A stretch of 64,000 nucleotides of DNA from Roseovarius autotrophicus (GTDB lineage Bacteria > Pseudomonadota > Alphaproteobacteria > Rhodobacterales > Rhodobacteraceae). Of this stretch, positions 7,463 to 59,481 are shown one piece after another (positions within the stretch are counted from its first letter, which is position 1; the number at the start of each line of letters is the position of its first letter). The position numbers and the translations under genes are program-made. The notes beneath the pieces are model-generated. The model did no database searches, was not told the origin of the DNA, and saw only the letters and a list, made by a program, of their open reading frames with translations. Location: NCBI RefSeq assembly GCF_018069895.1, contig NZ_JAGQDH010000001.1, forward strand, positions 186,001 through 250,000. Reading direction: 5' to 3'.

Positions 7463-9010
7463 ATGGCAGAGGCAGTAACGCAAGGCAGACGGGCACGGGG
7501 CGGCGGCGGGGCCGCGCGCCGGGCCGAGCGCACCGCCGTGAGTGTCGAGACCGCGCGCTATATCGAACGCAATATCCCCAATTTCGAGGTGCTGACCGAG
7601 GAGGCGCTTGAGATCATCGAGTGGAACGCCGATACGGTGCTGGAAGAGATCGGCGTCAATTTCGTGCAGAACCCCGCCGCGCTTGACCGCTGGCGGCAGG
7701 CGGGGGCCGATGTGCGGGGCGAGCGGGTGCGCATCCCGCGCGGACTTGCCCGCCAGCTTTGCGCCACCGCGCCTTCGACCTTCACGCAACACGCCCGCAA
7801 CCCCGCGCGCAATGTCGAGATCGGCGGGCGCAACCTCGTTCTGGCCCCGGTCTATGGCCCGCCCTTCGTCCATGACATGGAGCATGGCCGCCGCTATGCC
7901 ACCATCGAGGATTTCCGCAATTTCGTGCGTCTCGGCTACATGTCGAAATGGCTGCACCATTCCGGCGGCACGGTCTGCGAGCCCACGGATATTCCGGTCA
8001 ACAAGCGCCATCTCGACATGCTGCTGGCGCATATGACGCTGTCGGACAAGCCGTTCATGGGATCGGTGACAGAGCCGTCGCGCGCGCAGGACAGCGTGGA
8101 GATGGCGTCTATCCTCTTTGGCGCGGAGTTCGTGCAACAGAACACGGTGATGACAAGCCTCATCAACGTCAACTCGCCGATGACCTTCGACGATGTGATG
8201 ATGGGATCATTGGAGGTCTATGCCGCCAACAATCAGGCCAGCATCATATCTCCGTTCATCGTCGGGGGCGCGATGGCGCCTACCACGGTGGCGGGGACGC
8301 TCACGCAGGTTTTGGCCGAGGTGCTGGCGGGGATCGCCTATTCCCAGCTTGTGCGCCCTGGCGCGCCGGTGATTGCGGGGGCCTTCGTGACCTCGATCGA
8401 CATGAACAGCGGCGCGCCCACCTTCGGCACGCCCGAGGCCGCGCATATCACCTATGGCGCGGGGCAACTGGCGCGGCGGCTGGGGCTGCCCTATCGCTCG
8501 GCCGGTGCGTTCACCGGCTCCAAGCTGCCCGATGCGCAGGCCGCCTATGAGACCGCCAACAGCCTCAACATGGGGCTGCTGGCCGGGGTGAATTTCATGC
8601 TGCATTCCTGCGGCTGGCTGGAGGGGGGGCTGGTCTCGTCCTACGAGAAATTCGTCATGGATGCCGATCAGCTTGGCGCGCTGCACCATCTGGCGCTTGG
8701 CGTTCTCATGGACGAGAACGGGCAGGCGATGGACGCGATCCGCGAGGTGGGGCCGGGCGGGCACTTCCTGGGCTGCGCACACACGCAGGCCAATTTCAAG
8801 ACCGCCTTCTGGCGCTCGGACCTGCTCGATTACAAGCCCTACGAGACCTGGTCAGAGGAAGGCGGGCGCGACACGATGGCCCTTGCCAATGCACGGATGA
8901 AGAAGATGCTGGCCGATTACCAACAGCCCTCGCTCGACCCGGCCATCGCGGAGGCGCTTGACGCCTATGTGACGCAGCGCAAGGCCGGGATGCCGGACGC
9001 CTTCGGCTGA
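7463..9010 (+). CDS. MttB-superfamily (trimethylamine methyltransferase-like) protein
   Basis: A 515-residue MttB-family protein. Start chosen at ATG 7463, preceded by AAGGGGG with normal spacing; upstream extensions would run through the intergenic region. Conserved MttB stretches include GPPFVHDMEHGR, HHSGGTVCEPTDIPVNKRH and EVGPGGHFLGCAHTQ. There is no in-frame UAG, so this is a non-pyrrolysine member, a group that includes glycine-betaine and other quaternary-amine demethylases. Those enzymes pass the methyl group to a corrinoid protein; none is encoded nearby. The Arg/Gly-rich N-terminus (RARGGGGAARRAER) precedes the TIM barrel. Substrate not deducible. Confidence 0.88.
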   Translation: MAEAVTQGRRARGGGGAARRAERTAVSVETARYIERNIPNFEVLTEEALEIIEWNADTVLEEIGVNFVQNPAALDRWRQAGADVRGERVRIPRGLARQLCATAPSTFTQHARNPARNVEIGGRNLVLAPVYGPPFVHDMEHGRRYATIEDFRNFVRLGYMSKWLHHSGGTVCEPTDIPVNKRHLDMLLAHMTLSDKPFMGSVTEPSRAQDSVEMASILFGAEFVQQNTVMTSLINVNSPMTFDDVMMGSLEVYAANNQASIISPFIVGGAMAPTTVAGTLTQVLAEVLAGIAYSQLVRPGAPVIAGAFVTSIDMNSGAPTFGTPEAAHITYGAGQLARRLGLPYRSAGAFTGSKLPDAQAAYETANSLNMGLLAGVNFMLHSCGWLEGGLVSSYEKFVMDADQLGALHHLALGVLMDENGQAMDAIREVGPGGHFLGCAHTQANFKTAFWRSDLLDYKPYETWSEEGGRDTMALANARMKKMLADYQQPSLDPAIAEALDAYVTQRKAGMPDAFG

Positions 9011-9300
9011 GGCGCGGGCGGCACGTCGGCCAGAATCTGCGCCTCACCGATCAGGGCAATCAATACCTCCACATGACGCGCGGCACGGTATCCCGTGGCG
9101 CGCGTTCTTCTTGCCTGCTCCTCGGCGGCCTCGAGCGCGATCAACCGCGAGAGGGCGCTCGGGGTCGGTGGCAGGTGCCCCGGACCGAACAGCCGGGGTA
9201 GGGCGCGCTCGCGGACATAGGCTTGCGCGCCGATCCTCGCGGCCCGCACAAGCAGCGGCGGGCGACACAGGCGGCCAAGCTTCATGCGGATATCGTGCAT
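8965..9300 (-). CDS. DUF6477-type protein, divergent partner of the GafA-like gene
   Basis: A 111-residue soluble, Arg-rich protein matching the Rhodobacterales DUF6477 pattern as I recall it: LCRPPLLVRAARIGA near the N-terminus, LIALEAAEEQARRTRATGY, then ARHVEVLIALIGEAQ. The start codon is preceded by GGAGATGAGA. Its 3' end overlaps the convergent MttB-like gene by 46 nt. In R. capsulatus the gene next to gafA (rcc01866) has been linked to gene-transfer-agent control, and I infer this is its equivalent. Biochemical role unknown. Confidence 0.75.
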   Translation of the reverse strand: MHDIRMKLGRLCRPPLLVRAARIGAQAYVRERALPRLFGPGHLPPTPSALSRLIALEAAEEQARRTRATGYRAARHVEVLIALIGEAQILADVPPAPQPKASGIPALRCVT

Positions 9301-9439
9301 GGTCTCATCTCCTCACATGCGGATGCGGGGACGAGCCTTGCACGGGACGGGAGGGCGTTGCGCAGAGCCGGGACACAGCGCACGGTGAGGGTGCAAATTG
9401 TTCATGCTCTGTAAACGAAGGTTGATTTTACGGAAACAG

Positions 9440-9454
9440 TTAACGAACCGGTAA
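9440..9454. promoter_or_regulatory. Near-consensus CtrA site (TTAA-N7-GTAA) upstream of gafA-like gene
   Basis: TTAA, seven bases, then GTAA: one mismatch to the CtrA consensus TTAA-N7-TTAA. It lies in the 251-nt divergent intergenic region, about 100 nt upstream of the GafA-like start. CtrA is a known activator of gafA in R. capsulatus. A single near-match can arise by chance. Confidence 0.4.
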
Positions 9455-9551
9455 GATTTACACGCTTAAGTTGCAGAAACCATGTGGATAACCTGTGGAC
9501 AAATGGACGGCACCCCGTGTGCCGCGACTGGCAGAACTCTGGGGACTTGCA

Positions 9552-10643
9552 ATGCGACAGCAGCTACTAACCAAACCGACCCTCTCCAAGGTGCCGTCCT
9601 GGGTGCCCGAGGCGGCGCGTCATTACCTTGCGCATACCGAAAGCGGGGCCACGATCCGCGATCTCGCGCGGCATTCCGGGCGGCATGCCTCGACCGTGCT
9701 GCGCCAGATCCGTGCCTTCGAGACGCGCCGCGACGATCTGCTTGTGGATGAGGCGCTGCGACGTCTGGGCGGTGTGGTGAGCAAGTCACGGATCACCGGT
9801 TTTTCAGCCACGGAGCACCGAATGACAGGTCACGATATCCGACCCAAGAACAAGATCACGCTCAGCGAGGCGCGGCTGCGCGCCGAGGCACGCCGTGTGC
9901 TGCGACGGCTGTGCGAGCGGGGCGCCGTGCTTGCGGTGGCCTCTGACATGGACAGGGCCGTTGTGGTGCGCGAGACCGGGGTCGGCGCAACCCGCACCGC
10001 GGTGGTCGAGCGTGAGGTGGCCGAGGCGCTGGCCCTCAAGGCGTGGATCGGCTGCGACAATCCGGGGCGCGTCTCGCGCTACCACATCACGACGAAGGGG
10101 CGTGCCGCGCTTGGCGAGTTGCTGGCCGAGGACGAGAACGCCGCAACCGGCTTGCGGGAACCAGCGGTGGTGCTGACCGATGACGGGTTCGGGACGCCCC
10201 CGCCGCGCCTTGCCCCGAGCGACACGCCGCTTGCGGCGCTGGCGCGGCGGCGCGAAAAGGATGGCACGCCGTTTCTCAGCGCCGATCTTGTCCGCGCCGG
10301 CGAACGGCTGCGCGAGGATTTCGAACTGGCGCAGATGGCCCCGCGCACGGCGCAGAACTGGGATCATTTCCTTGCCCATGTGGACGAGGGCAGCGGTACG
10401 CCCGCCGCGCCAGGCTATGGCGCCGAGGCGGCGCGCGCCCGTCTCATCGGCGCGCTGCGCGAACTGGGGCCAGGGCTGAGCGATGTGGCTTTGCGTTGCT
10501 GCTGCTACCTTCAGGGGCTCGAGACGGCCGAGCGCAAGATGGGCTGGTCGGCTCGTTCTGCCAAGATCGTGCTGCGCATCGCGTTGCACCGGCTCAAACG
10601 CCATTACGAACGGCTGGGCGGGCGCGCAGACCTCATCGGCTGA
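9552..10643 (+). CDS. gafA: HTH/DUF6456 regulator, probable GafA (gene-transfer-agent activator)
   Basis: A 363-residue putative DNA-binding regulator. An N-terminal helix-turn-helix (SGATIRDLARHSGRHASTVLRQI, residues about 31-53) is followed by a linker. The C-terminal 75 residues form the DUF6456 domain, which resembles sigma-factor region 4 (ARLIGALRELGPGLSDVAL then WSARSAKIVLRIALHRL). GafA of R. capsulatus (rcc01865) has this architecture and directly activates the GTA promoter with CtrA and the RNA polymerase omega subunit. ATG 9552 was chosen for its GGGGAC site; an in-frame ATG at 9495 would add 19 residues. Two features support the identity: the divergent DUF6477 partner and the upstream CtrA-like site. 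No GTA structural genes are nearby, which fits the scattered GTA control loci. Confidence 0.75.
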   Translation: MRQQLLTKPTLSKVPSWVPEAARHYLAHTESGATIRDLARHSGRHASTVLRQIRAFETRRDDLLVDEALRRLGGVVSKSRITGFSATEHRMTGHDIRPKNKITLSEARLRAEARRVLRRLCERGAVLAVASDMDRAVVVRETGVGATRTAVVEREVAEALALKAWIGCDNPGRVSRYHITTKGRAALGELLAEDENAATGLREPAVVLTDDGFGTPPPRLAPSDTPLAALARRREKDGTPFLSADLVRAGERLREDFELAQMAPRTAQNWDHFLAHVDEGSGTPAAPGYGAEAARARLIGALRELGPGLSDVALRCCCYLQGLETAERKMGWSARSAKIVLRIALHRLKRHYERLGGRADLIG

Positions 10644-10684: not shown

Positions 10685-11644
10685 ATGAACATCACCCTGC
10701 GACAGTTGATCTATTTCCGATCGCTCGCCCGCCATCGAAATTTCGGGCGGGCGGCGGAGGCGCTGCATATCTCGCAGCCTGCGCTTTCGGTCCAGATACG
10801 CGAGTTTGAGGCAACGCTTGGCGCTTCGGTGGTAGAGCGGCGTGCGCGCGACATCGCGCTCACGCCCTTTGGCCGCCGGGTTCTTGCCCATGCCAACCGG
10901 GTGCTGGCGGAAATGCAGGCGCTTGAGGAAACCGCGCGTTGGCGCGGCGGGCTGGCGGGGGAACTCTCGCTCGGGATCATCCCGACCATCGCGCCCTATA
11001 TCCTGCCCGGCGCGCTGGCGCGCCTGCGCTCGCGCGACATCTCGCTTGATGTGCGGGTGCGCGAGGCGCGCACCGAAGATCTGGCGAGCGATCTGCGCGC
11101 GGGCCGCATCGACGTGGCGCTCATGGCGCTGCCCTTGCCCTGCGAGGGGCTGGAGGCGGTGGCGCTGTTCGAGGACCGGTTCCTTCTGGCGGGTAGCGCC
11201 GCGCGGCTTGCAGCGCTTGGCGATTCGCTGGATGCGCTCGATCCCAAGGCCCTTGGCCAAAGCCCGATCCTGCTGCTTGAAGATGGGCATTGCCTGACCG
11301 ATCAGGCGCTGGAGGTTTGCGGGCGCGCCAGGGGACATGCGCAGATCGACACCGGGGCGTCATCGCTCGGCACGCTCTCGCGGCTTGTCGCCGCGGGCTT
11401 TGGCCTTACCCTCATTCCCGAAATGGCGGCGGCGACCGAGGCACGGGCGGCACCGGGGCTGGAGTTGCGCCGCTTTGCCGCGCCTGAGCCCGCACGCCGC
11501 ATCGCGCTGGTGCGTCGCGCGGGAGCGGGGCCTGCGCAATGGTTCGACGATCTGGCCGAGATCCTGCGCGCGGCGGGCGAAGCCGCAACAAAAACGGCCC
11601 GCGACGTCAACGCCGCGAGCCGCCGAACACCGGGACACTCGTGA
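10685..11644 (+). CDS. oxyR: OxyR-type LysR regulator with both redox cysteines
   Basis: A 319-residue LysR-family activator. The N-terminal winged HTH is LTLRQL-like (MNITLRQLIYFRSLARHRNF, then ALHISQPALSVQIREFE). The effector domain contains GHCLTDQALEVC, with Cys203 and Cys212. This matches the Cys-X8-Cys pair of E. coli OxyR (GHCLRDQAMGFC), which forms a disulfide in response to H2O2. I chose ATG 10685 because the in-frame upstream extension lies inside the GafA-like gene. No catalase or peroxidase gene is adjacent. It is 41 nt downstream of the GafA-like gene on the same strand, so read-through is possible. Confidence 0.88.
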   Translation: MNITLRQLIYFRSLARHRNFGRAAEALHISQPALSVQIREFEATLGASVVERRARDIALTPFGRRVLAHANRVLAEMQALEETARWRGGLAGELSLGIIPTIAPYILPGALARLRSRDISLDVRVREARTEDLASDLRAGRIDVALMALPLPCEGLEAVALFEDRFLLAGSAARLAALGDSLDALDPKALGQSPILLLEDGHCLTDQALEVCGRARGHAQIDTGASSLGTLSRLVAAGFGLTLIPEMAAATEARAAPGLELRRFAAPEPARRIALVRRAGAGPAQWFDDLAEILRAAGEAATKTARDVNAASRRTPGHS

Positions 11645-11764: not shown

Positions 11765-12709
11765 GTGCGTGATCTCAAACTGCCCGGCGGGCGTCATCCC
11801 GAAAAGGCGCACCGTCCCGATAATGCCCAGCCCAAAAAGCCCGACTGGATCCGCGTCAAGGCCCCGACCTCGAAGGGGTATTTCGAGACCCATCGCATCA
11901 TGCGCGAGCACAAGCTGGTGACGGTCTGCGAGGAGGCGGGCTGTCCCAATGCCGGCGAATGCTGGGGGCAGGGGCACGCCACCATGATGATCATGGGCGA
12001 GATCTGCACGCGCGGCTGCACCTTCTGCAACGTGGCCACCGGCAAGCCGCAGAACCTTGATGCGTTCGAGCCGGGGCGAGTGGCCGATGCGGTGGCCAAG
12101 CTGGGGCTGAAGCATGTGGTGGTGACCAGCGTGGATCGTGACGACCTCGATGATGGCGGGGCCGAGCATTTCGCCCAGACCATCCGCGCCATCCGCCACC
12201 GCGCGCCGGGAACGACCATCGAGATCCTGACCCCCGATTTCCTGCATTGCGGCCCCGAGGCGCTGGAAGTGGTGGTGGCGGCCAAGCCGGACGTGTTCAA
12301 CCACAACCTCGAGACAGTGCCGGGGCTTTACCCCACGGTGCGCCCCGGTGCGCGCTATTTCCACAGTCTGCGCCTGTTGCAACGGGTCAAGGAACTTGAC
12401 CCGACGCTGTTCACCAAATCGGGCATCATGGTCGGGCTGGGAGAGGACCGGCAGGGCGTGCATCAGGTGATGGACGACATGCGCGCGGCGGATGTGGATT
12501 TTCTGACCATCGGTCAGTATCTGCAACCCACCCCCAAGCATCACGCGGTGGCGCGCTTCGTGCATCCGGACGAATTCGCCGCCTATGAGAAAGCGGCCTA
12601 TGGCAAGGGGTTCCTGATGGTATCGGCCACGCCGCTCACGCGGTCGTCCTATCACGCAGGCGAGGATTTCGCGCGGCTGCGGGCGGCGCGGCAGGCGAAG
12701 TTCGCCTGA
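11765..12709 (+). CDS. lipA: Lipoyl synthase
   Basis: A 314-residue radical-SAM enzyme that inserts two sulfurs into protein-bound octanoyl groups to make lipoyl cofactors. The auxiliary cluster cysteines are C55, C60 and C66 ([12 protein letters not shown]). The radical-SAM CxxxCxxC motif is C81, C85 and C88 (CTRGCTFC). The conserved C-terminal RSSYHA supplies the Ser ligand of the auxiliary cluster. The start is GTG at 11765 with GGGGAAA upstream; the ATG at 11758 runs into a stop after four codons. The 120-nt upstream gap has a TATACT (-10-like) but no good -35. Confidence 0.97.
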
Positions 12710-57066: not shown

Positions 57067-59382
57067 TCATGTCACCTTCATCGTCATCATCCTCTGGACC
57101 GTCTCGGCGAGATCGTTGAGGGAAAACGGTTTCGGCAGGAATACTGACTTGTCGATCCGCGCCTGGATGTCGCCGAAGGTCTCTTCCGCATAGCCCGACA
57201 TGAACACAACCCGAACCTCCGGTCTCAGCGCCAGGGCCTTCTGGACCCAGTTCGGCCCGTCCATGCCGGGCATCACGACATCCGTCACGAACACATCGAC
57301 ATGGCAGGCCTGATCGGTCAGGAGCTCGAGTGCCTCTTCGGCCGATCCGGCCTCGAGCACGGTAAAGCCGCGCAGTTGCAACGCGCGGCTGGCGAATGCC
57401 CGGACGGGCAACTCGTCCTCCACCAGGAGTACGACGCCAACGCTGACCGCCGCGGCCAGGGTCAGAGGCTCAGGCACGGGCTCGACCACGCAAGCATGGT
57501 CATGGGCGGGGAAAAGCAGCTGGAACGTGGTGCCTTCGTTCTCGGTGCTGTCGGCAAAGATGAATCCGCCTGTCTGCTTTACGATCCCGTAAGCGGTCGA
57601 CAGCCCGAGCCCGGTTCCCTCCCCCACACGTTTGGTCGTGAAGAACGGCTCGAACACCTTGGCGATCATGTCGGGCGCGATGCCATGGCCGGTATCGCTG
57701 ACCTCGACCGTCACATATCGGCCCGACGCCACGACTGCCCTGTCCCGTTGCAAGGGTGCGTCAAGAACCCGATTACGGGTCACGATCCGTATTTCGCCGC
57801 CGCCCGGCATTGCGTCGCGCGCATTGACCACGAGATTCATGATGACCTGCTCGATCTGGCGCTTGTCGGCGCGAATGGCCCAAAGCCCCGGCTCGTGATC
57901 GAGGGTCAGCGACACCTGTTCTCCGACGAGGCGATTGAGAAGGTGGGTCAGGTCGGCAAGCGTGTCTCGCAGGTCCAGAAGCGTGGGGCACAATGTCTGC
58001 TTGCGCGAGAATGCGAGCAGTTGCCCGACCAGCGAGGCCGCGCGGTTGACGTTCTGGTTGATCTGCATGAGGTCGGAATACTCGGGGTCTCCGGGATCAC
58101 GATGCATCAGCAGCAGGTCACAGTGTCCCGCGATCGCGGTGAGAAGGTTGTTGAAGTCATGCGCGATTCCGCCCGCCAACTGGCCGATCGCCTGCATCTT
58201 CTGGCTCTGCACGAATTGTGCCTGAAGCGACTTGAGTTCGGTCGCGTCGCTCAGCACGGCGATGAGAACGATCTCGCCGGAATCGCGCGCGCGCCCCAGC
58301 GCCACCTGAACAAATGCGTCCCTGTCGTTGCCGCGCAGGCGCAGGAATTCCGGCTTGAGCGATCCGCGCTCGGCGGCGGCGTCGGCGACCCAGTCGGAAA
58401 CCGGGCGCCCGAGACCCTCCAGAAGTTCGGAAAGCAGAACGGGGTCGGGAGATGCATGATCCAGTAGCGCACGCGCCGGCGGATTGGCCCGCAGAACGGT
58501 GCCATCGCGCGCAAGTTTGAGAAGCGGCACGGGCAGGTCATCGAAGAGCGCCCAGCTGTCAGGCATGGTCACGGGATTCCGGGCGCCTGGTAGAAGGTAG
58601 ATCTCGCGCCGCCCGGCGATCCCCGACAGTTCGACAAAAATGCAAGGCACCTGTCCTGCGGCTGTGGATATCTCGCACAGGCTGCCGGATTGCGGCGCTG
58701 TCAGCCCGAGTGCCTCCAGCGAGGGGACACGGGCACCGACAAGTTCACGCGCGGCCGGATTCATGTAGAGAACGGTATTGTTGCGGCCGAGCGTCAGCAT
58801 GGGCAGCGGATGCTGATCCGATGCCTGCGTGGCGCGCGCAGCAGGGACCTCGAAGCGCCAGACGAACTGCCCCTCACCGGCGCGGTGCAGGACGATGCGC
58901 ATGTGGCCGTCGCGAGTGACGATATCCTCGACCGAAGAGCCCACGGCCTCGGCCCGGCTTTCCATCCGGAAGAGCAGGGCGCCCGGATTGGCCAGATGCT
59001 CTTTCAGGAGTGTGGCGAGCGTGCCCTGGCCATTGTTGCCGAACAACCTGCGCGCGGAGTGATTCGCAAAGATGAGGCATCCGCCTGCGACACTCAGCAG
59101 CACGGCACCGGGATCATCCTCGAACAGGCGTATCACATCAGCCCGGACGCTGCGGGCGCGGCGCTGCGCCACGGCCCGACCGATGCGCAGCCAGAGCGCG
59201 CCAAGTAAGATCACCACCGCGGACAGCGCGACCGGTTGCGCAAGCGTGCGATCACCCAGCAGGAGTGCCGTGAGGGCCAGAACGACCGCGGCCACCACCA
59301 GAGCCAGCCCCCGTCGCCCCGACTGCGATCCGCGCGTTTGCCAATCCTGCGCAGGACTCTCCGGGAAAGCCACCTGCCGCAC
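57067..59382 (-). CDS. cckA: Hybrid histidine kinase CckA
   Basis: A 771-residue cell-cycle hybrid kinase. Two N-terminal membrane helices (about 25-43 and 49-68) precede two or three PAS-like regions. The H-box is AGGIAHDFNNLLTAIAGH (His408) and the HATPase domain has NLVVNARDAMPGGG and GEGTGLGLSTAYGI. The C-terminal receiver has Asp701 (FVTDVVMPGMDG) and Lys in FLPKPFS. CckA drives the CckA-ChpT-CtrA phosphorelay, which in Rhodobacterales controls motility and gene-transfer-agent release. chpT and ctrA are not in this window. Confidence 0.94.
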   Translation of the reverse strand: MRQVAFPESPAQDWQTRGSQSGRRGLALVVAAVVLALTALLLGDRTLAQPVALSAVVILLGALWLRIGRAVAQRRARSVRADVIRLFEDDPGAVLLSVAGGCLIFANHSARRLFGNNGQGTLATLLKEHLANPGALLFRMESRAEAVGSSVEDIVTRDGHMRIVLHRAGEGQFVWRFEVPAARATQASDQHPLPMLTLGRNNTVLYMNPAARELVGARVPSLEALGLTAPQSGSLCEISTAAGQVPCIFVELSGIAGRREIYLLPGARNPVTMPDSWALFDDLPVPLLKLARDGTVLRANPPARALLDHASPDPVLLSELLEGLGRPVSDWVADAAAERGSLKPEFLRLRGNDRDAFVQVALGRARDSGEIVLIAVLSDATELKSLQAQFVQSQKMQAIGQLAGGIAHDFNNLLTAIAGHCDLLLMHRDPGDPEYSDLMQINQNVNRAASLVGQLLAFSRKQTLCPTLLDLRDTLADLTHLLNRLVGEQVSLTLDHEPGLWAIRADKRQIEQVIMNLVVNARDAMPGGGEIRIVTRNRVLDAPLQRDRAVVASGRYVTVEVSDTGHGIAPDMIAKVFEPFFTTKRVGEGTGLGLSTAYGIVKQTGGFIFADSTENEGTTFQLLFPAHDHACVVEPVPEPLTLAAAVSVGVVLLVEDELPVRAFASRALQLRGFTVLEAGSAEEALELLTDQACHVDVFVTDVVMPGMDGPNWVQKALALRPEVRVVFMSGYAEETFGDIQARIDKSVFLPKPFSLNDLAETVQRMMTMKVT

Positions 59383-59481
59383 CTTTCATGCCAATGCCTG
59401 TTCATGCGATCCTGCGCACGAAGGCTTAACATCGACTTAACGGCCACCCGAAATTCTCGTCAAGATTGACTATAATAATTT

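Follow-up and report, generated by a model that had tools for sequence, protein, structure and literature searches.

The 64,000-nucleotide stretch of Roseovarius autotrophicus DNA analysed here (the window; C11:186001-250000 of a 3.68 Mb genome in 83 contigs) carries a homologue of gafA. Gene transfer agents (GTAs) are particles resembling viruses that move host DNA among marine bacteria; GafA is the principal switch of the archetypal one, doing as one protein the work of two Caulobacter proteins. The open frame (9495–10643, plus strand) has a single Pfam match, DUF6456 (PF20057, E 6.8e-58, amino acids 240–372), which is also the only DUF6456 match genome-wide, so that gafA is present in single copy. 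Its best-supported start is the ATG at 9552, with GGGGA (9541–9545) six bases 5' of it; the other candidates are the GTG at which the open frame begins (9495) and a GTG at 9519. Over its full length the product is 51–60% identical to GafA-type proteins from 12 relatives, with which it has in common an HxST motif in the N-terminal helix-turn-helix (HTH), and the nearest named gafA genes are those of Roseovarius. These similarities establish the gene as a gafA orthologue, as a first-pass annotation of the sequence had proposed, with Rhodobacter capsulatus GafA entering the comparison by description.

In an AlphaFold model, the protein consists of an HTH (residues 20–77), a central alpha/beta part (106–199) and a helical C-part (226–359). 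Between the first two lies a linker, where the predicted local distance difference test (pLDDT) falls to 57 and 54 in the blocks covering residues 81–100 and mean pairwise identity is 0.14, versus 0.64 and 0.61 on its flanks. The same annotation had described an HTH joined to a sigma-region-4-like part. The HTH was borne out by the model, whereas the sigma-like label agrees with the literature but found insignificant support in Foldseek, which returned insignificant matches only, among them an extracytoplasmic function (ECF) sigma factor (E 0.52) and DnaA (E 1.1). By count, residue 55 (9714–9716) corresponds to R. capsulatus R51, whose change to alanine is reported to impair GafA (PMC9638019); it is alanine in the window protein and in one relative (L011), and various residues in some others. 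The features of the locus are collected in Table 1.

Table 1. Positions of gafA, its parts and associated features within the window
Feature	Position	Strand	Basis
DUF6477 gene (rcc01866 position)	8965..9300	-	PF20083 E 1e-29
CtrA-type site TTAAC-GAACCG-GTAAG (TTAACGAACCGGTAAG)	9440..9455	+	gafA-DUF6477 intergenic
gafA, full-length product, 363 aa	9552..10643	+	PF20057 E 6.8e-58; ribosome-binding site GGGGA read directly
N-terminal HTH (GafY-like part), residues 20-77	9609..9782	+	AlphaFold, block pLDDT 85-97
Linker, residues ~78-105	9783..9866	+	disordered from about 81; low conservation
Internal ribosome-binding site ACGGAGC	9810..9816	+	duplex energy -5.8
Proposed second start, ATG at residue 91	9822..9824	+	conserved Met column and Shine-Dalgarno statistics
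Predicted short product, 273 aa, putative GafZ / GafA-Cx equivalent	9822..10643	+	conservation and PMC9638019
DUF6456 domain	10212..10610	+	Pfam match
LysR-family regulator, OxyR-like, between gafA and lipA	10686..11644	+	start chosen by eye
lipA, lipoyl synthase, gafA synteny marker	11765..12709	+	PF16881 and Radical_SAM
CckA-like hybrid histidine kinase	57067..59382	-	PAS, HisKA, HATPase, receiver domains
Second near-CtrA site, directly upstream of CckA-like gene	59426..59441	+	scan allowing at most 1 mismatch

A conserved internal start in the GafA linker

Alignment of the 13 GafA proteins revealed one near-invariant methionine within the otherwise variable linker, preceded in the DNA by an AAGGA-like sequence. 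We examined this position in 180 gafA loci (the window's own, 30 from an order sample, 80 named and 69 further loci), 8 of which were dropped as duplicates to leave 172 distinct proteins. Met occupies this column in 139 of the 172, while across columns 334–416 the best of the other columns shown reaches 79, that one being a Lys six columns before, which forms part of the Shine-Dalgarno (SD) codons; conservation resumes at column 417 (Asp, 95/172). Within eight codons of the column, 144 of the 172 genes have an in-frame ATG. An SD duplex energy of -4.5 or below was found at 137 of these 144 internal ATGs (133 of the 139 lying exactly in the column), whereas the controls gave 32.9% (1151 other in-frame ATGs), 32.5% (1222 out-of-frame ATGs) and 33.8% (860 random sites). 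Likewise, a 4-mer of AAGGAGG starting between -17 and -7 precedes 138 of the 144 internal ATGs but just 119 of the 1151 elsewhere in frame, the strongest single contrast in the data. The same span holds such a 4-mer in 40 of 55 cases at the N-terminal start column, where an SD is present in 51 of 55, similar to the internal column. The internal column is unlike the five others that hold 75 or more Met, whose SD counts were 74/149, 18/90, 3/130, 63/117 and 41/75; at five smaller Met columns they were 8/25, 15/63, 8/31, 13/36 and 2/31, and at a column near the N-terminus 26/35.

When the seven upstream codons were recoded synonymously, the observed mean SD energy was reached in none of 300 trials (z -8.8). 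Moreover, the SD is kept in 43 of the 49 genes whose peptide lacks K[DE] (one of the 49, L087, being a broken gene), indicating that the constraint acts on the DNA. Because relatedness inflates P values, the counts were repeated on thinned sets: below 75% identity the ATG was present in 85 of 96 genes, with an SD in 82 of those, and below 65% in 35 of 39, with an SD in 32. In Roseovarius nubinhibens (L108) the internal start has AAGGAG and ATG; in Roseovarius pacificus (L061) a GTG behind AAGGAGGTGAT stands in place of the ATG. By these statistics, the combination of ribosome-binding site and start codon is conserved beyond chance at one place in the gene. The modal distance from the serine of the HAST motif (R. 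capsulatus S43) to the internal Met is 44 residues (51/142), i.e. residue 87, which is also the first residue of the R. capsulatus construct GafA-Cx(87-382) (PMC9638019). It appears probable, from conservation, that a short protein is made from gafA.

Three genes in the set are broken: L087, L153 (G264) and L195 (G163, a genome that also lacks a DUF6477 and a GTA_TIM match). They were kept in the ATG counts, L087 as a misplaced match and L153 and L195 as loci without ATG, as was L061 with its GTG, and were left out of the gafA tree (169 rows). A further locus, L033 (G002), has a stop just before the internal start; its reading as a functional split was dropped, the GTA cluster there being a broken remnant.

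Outside this family, the HTH and the C-part are commonly encoded apart. In a class-wide sample that included the window's family, 36 of 192 genomes had a DUF6456 match, 35 above the cut-off. At the 19 loci from other families, a profile built from the relatives located a separate upstream HTH open reading frame (ORF) in 15 (E up to 0.0013) and no HTH match in 4. An ATG with SD energy below -4.5 stands at the head of the C-part ORF, its start picked by eye, in 13 of the 15 two-ORF loci (in L209 it starts later in the protein); the remaining two, L205 and L208, offer only weak SD candidates. This layout agrees with the two-gene operons reported in PMC9638019 and with the GafY/GafZ pair of PMC9632790. 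We infer that gafA of the family is a fusion that retained the start of the second gene, provided the change ran towards fusion rather than fission.

Promoter and leader terminator ahead of terL

Turning to the target of GafA, we analysed the DNA ahead of the terminase gene terL at 70 loci (30 and 40 from two retrievals). A strong hairpin followed by a T-run lies at -420 to -200 from terL in 56 of the 70; five shuffled versions of the set gave 2, 1, 3, 3 and 1 such hairpins per 70, and a control window gave 4 per 70. Using RNAalifold on 45 aligned hairpins (of 48 located by a looser pattern; L303, L324 and L332 were omitted and the L322 row is misaligned), we identified nine pairs, six with changes on both sides, one of which is C-G in 19 and G-C in 12. 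Ahead of the hairpin, TTGACn-N16-18-TAnnnn was found in 45 of 70 loci versus 2 of 350 control windows; the count uses the first qualifying T-run per locus and may be an undercount. The spacer measures 17 bases in 44 of the 45, and the 18-base spacer of the remaining one (L333), which may be a chance match, was excluded from the base counts. Within those 44, C4, G5, C8 and G9 are conserved at 93–100%. The order of elements is thus a TTGACT-like -35, a 17-base spacer with CG..CGgTC, a TATAgg-like -10, a stretch like TTGTGaCATGCTaGAAGAAGTGGGCAA and the stem, the first transcribed bases of the leader being conserved as well. A conserved promoter and intrinsic terminator precede terL, arranged in what appears to be the manner of phage late promoters that antitermination controls, with the conserved spacer bases as a putative protein site. 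By analogy, the layout fits antitermination of the GafZ type.

The GTA cluster, CtrA relay and neighbouring genes

The host carries GTA genes, as predicted in the first-pass annotation, in an RcGTA-type cluster that is split. The portal, protease, capsid, head and tail genes follow one another through to g15 at about 139.2–151.5 kb of the contig (C11:139208-151521), about 44 kb from gafA. The run g3–g15 includes GTA_TIM and Rcc01698_C domains, with g11 assigned by position only, and is preceded by a DAHP synthase gene, not by terL. An intact TerL frame, 74% identical to the in-cluster TerL of a congener (G037), lies on the minus strand at C11:459710-461107, some 308 kb from the portal-g15 block. 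Just upstream, at the place of terS, there is a short coding stretch that is conserved, and this relocated operon retains the GTA promoter and leader terminator. In three congeners (G493, G497, G500), whose terL is 79–83% identical to that of the window genome, terL also lacks an adjoining portal gene, and 9.6 kb separate the terL match from the portal match in a fourth (G492). The portal block itself keeps only the old terL-portal intergenic DNA. A CG-rich block there was considered as a second GafA-type element, 5' of the relocated portal block, and rejected, being a relic of the terL 3' end that is also found in unsplit congeners. Whether the cluster is split or not, a conserved block resembling TTTACTTTCCTTAAACCTTTGACGGTCTGATGCC lies between portal and the preceding terL or terL relic (19 portal loci, L229-L247); it is a possible internal promoter. 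Elsewhere in the genome, contigs C19 and C23 (L005-L008) hold two related prophage-like regions, their proteins 71–98% identical to each other, with tail genes of the GTA g12–g15 type beside other genes.

The gafA-DUF6477 intergenic site TTAACGAACCGGTAAG is one base off the site TTAAC-N6-GTAAC reported for the R. capsulatus gafA promoter (PMC6363796), as the earlier reading of a near-CtrA site between the two genes would have it. Two near-CtrA sites with at most one mismatch occur in the window against 0.23 expected, a number attained in 4 of 100 shuffles. TTAAN-N6-NTAAN lies upstream of gafA in 29 of 31 loci (one of the two misses, L033, has a site further up), and other gafA loci, too, have a final base that is not C, so that the base change in the window is not odd. 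The CckA-like gene placed about 47 kb away by the first-pass annotation is there, and CtrA (427 bits, cut-off 350), ChpT, RpoZ and the capsid and terminase genes are encoded in the genome. A gafA orthologue with a CtrA site in a GTA-bearing host is known biology and, as a gafA finding, ordinary. Published work has CtrA driving gafA and GafA binding the GTA promoter, and gafA homologues have been called widespread in the order (PMC9638019).

The divergent neighbour is likewise of the DUF6477 type that had been proposed, and a DUF6477 ORF adjoins gafA on the opposite strand in 79 of 80 named gafA loci; the assignment of R. capsulatus rcc01866 to this type is based on gene position. In the order sample (292 genomes including the window's own, all of one family), 291 have DUF6456, 288 DUF6477 and 280 GTA_TIM matches. 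gafA is still present in 11 of the 12 genomes that lack a GTA_TIM match, and three of this set (G001, G010, G091) carry full-length TerL, so that absence of GTA_TIM does not equal absence of the cluster. DUF6477 is modelled with confidence (pLDDT 88) as a fold of five helices, with no significant match in the PDB. Its best viral structural match is a protein of Roseobacter phage RDJL Phi 2 (probability 1.00, E 0.093), and an rcc01866 homologue has been reported in the related phage RDJL Phi 1 (PMC6363796). By tblastn over 50,697 phage records we found no relative of DUF6477. A phage origin of gafA was rejected, the same search yielding one weak relative and the viral contigs one locus. Synteny with lipA, named as typical of gafA (PMC6363796), is kept at the window locus with one LysR gene intervening.

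A further arrangement was seen in 11 of 149 genomes, where terL at about codon 184 runs into g15 at about 674–688 and some 11 kb of GTA cluster is gone, by the G037 layout (L282-L292; G002, G007, G009, G027, G074, G078, G079, G082, G102, G110 and G111). The joint, from the TerL Walker-B ..W.DE to g15.GC.A..KG, is identical in 10 of the 11, and G102 is out of frame there. For three genera (g1, g3, g22) the TerL piece was compared with that of intact congeners and proved closest to its own genus (85–94%), which suggests that this deletion arose repeatedly. Nine of the 11 are open frames of 831–893 aa, with a ratio of non-synonymous to synonymous polymorphism (pN/pS) of 0.09–0.22 in one genus. 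Both a recurrent chimera under selection and a deletion allele small enough to spread in GTA particles are possible.

Weighing a two-product GafA

We consider it likely, on this sequence evidence, that gafA has two products and acts as antiterminator-activator of a CtrA-switched, RcGTA-type GTA. For the family as a whole we lean slightly towards gafA being a fused GafY-GafZ that still makes free GafZ, with the GTA under phage-late-like antitermination at a leader terminator. As envisaged, gafA would be the dedicated activator of the host GTA, switched on through its CtrA site, and would give rise to full-length GafA (a DnaA-like HTH, the linker, and an RNA-polymerase-binding and DUF6456 part) together with a short form, translated from the internal ribosome-binding site and ATG, without the HTH. 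This short form would be the equivalent of Caulobacter GafZ, a separate gene there, and of R. capsulatus GafA-Cx. The HTH of full-length GafA would select promoters, while the spacer element would be where the GafZ-like part boards polymerase, to take it through the leader terminator; the free short form may be an extra antiterminator and driver of gafA autoregulation. By analogy with published GafA, the host protein would also activate the GTA genes and bind the polymerase subunit omega, for which rpoZ is present. GafA-Cx alone is reported to activate the gafA promoter (PMC9638019) and to suffice for autoregulation, and the C-part to dimerise. If the proposal is true, it would explain this activity of a protein cut at residue 87, where the alignment puts the predicted natural start of the short form.

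Several observations weigh against this proposal. In R. capsulatus, GafA-Cx does not replace full-length GafA (PMC9638019), and GafA binds omega, an interaction reported as not observed for Caulobacter GafZ (PMC11150451), so that the mechanisms may differ. The internal ATG is missing from 28 of 172 gafA genes; on the tree its absence (26 rows) takes 11 changes versus 24.7 when shuffled. In one Ruegeria clade, 14 of 16 rows (L066, L071, L072, L075 and others) lack the internal start and keep gafA, and three loci (L281, L297, L314) from a group falling in this clade retain the leader terminator. The short form is therefore not needed everywhere, and full-length GafA may be able to serve alone in Ruegeria, a clade that provides a ready-made contrast for asking what the short form does. 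At the criteria used, 14 of 70 terL loci lack the hairpin, and by the strict pattern 25 of 70 lack the promoter; no copy of the GTA promoter could be recognised at the portal-g15 block of the window genome.

The simplest alternative is that GafA is a single protein that initiates transcription via omega, the internal ribosome-binding site and ATG being an unused fusion relic or protein motif. The published work describes one polypeptide (PMC6363796, PMC9638019), and about half of the genes without the internal start belong to one clade that has not lost gafA. A relic would, however, be expected to decay within a linker of such low pairwise identity, and the SD both outlasts amino-acid change and beats synonymous recoding, which makes this alternative unlikely. 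Alternatively, GafA might recruit polymerase only, with the leader hairpin as an ordinary attenuator, a stabiliser of the mRNA 5' end or a terminator of other transcription. Hairpins close to 5' ends can stabilise mRNA. The word 'terminator' is absent from the main text of PMC6363796 and PMC6854486, and not every locus has the hairpin. Yet the hairpin sits downstream of a conserved promoter, ends in a T-run and covaries, the first transcribed bases are conserved, and the homologous GafZ antiterminates (PMC11150451); we regard this account as rather improbable. It would be more surprising still if the host GTA were dead and gafA retained for another role. The split of the cluster would suit such a remnant, as would the persistence of DUF6456 in all 11 terL::g15-remnant genomes (G074, the one searched for portal, has none), but the TerL and g3–g15 frames examined are open, and the terL-portal separation is common to three congeners, which indicates that the split arrangement has lasted.

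For a two-product, antiterminating GafA, the conserved internal start would be the source of a free GafZ-like protein. Caulobacter GafZ co-occurs with polymerase along the cluster and passes terminators, readthrough being dependent on GafZ (PMC11150451). Tran and Le (2024) raised the possibility that GafA might have antitermination activity, the place not being shown (PMC11150451); the conserved leader terminator and promoter element would supply the place they lacked. The words 'internal' and 'isoform' are absent from the main texts of PMC6363796 and PMC9638019. PMC11150451 ranked first in a broader literature search, and PMC13236601 and PMC8224337 also contain gene transfer agent together with an antitermination term. 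Our literature search, with supplements and subscription papers outside its scope, retrieved no paper joining gene transfer agent with internal translation initiation, and none joining gafA, gene transfer agent and isoform. Both the conserved internal start and the conserved promoter with leader terminator appear to be new.

In-frame internal-start genes such as cheA and infB give, from one frame, two products that differ at the N-terminus; the proposed internal start of gafA differs in marking the joint of parts that are separate genes elsewhere. R. capsulatus GafA (rcc01865) and rcc01866 resemble the window locus in the DUF6456 C-part, N-terminal HTH, divergent small neighbour, CtrA site and nearby lipA, but no internal start or leader terminator appears in the published descriptions consulted. 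With late-gene antitermination of the lambda Q or AlpA type, the GTA leader has in common a putative protein site inside the promoter and a terminator shortly beyond the start; we claim no relation in sequence or fold, and none is reported for GafZ in PMC11150451. The closest parallel in parts is Caulobacter crescentus, where GafY corresponds to the HTH part, GafZ to the C-part, and a putative GafZ site lies between -35 and -10. There, however, the parts are two genes and the terminator follows the first gene of the cluster, whereas in the family of the window they form one fused gene with an internal start at the junction, and the terminator lies in the leader, before the first gene.

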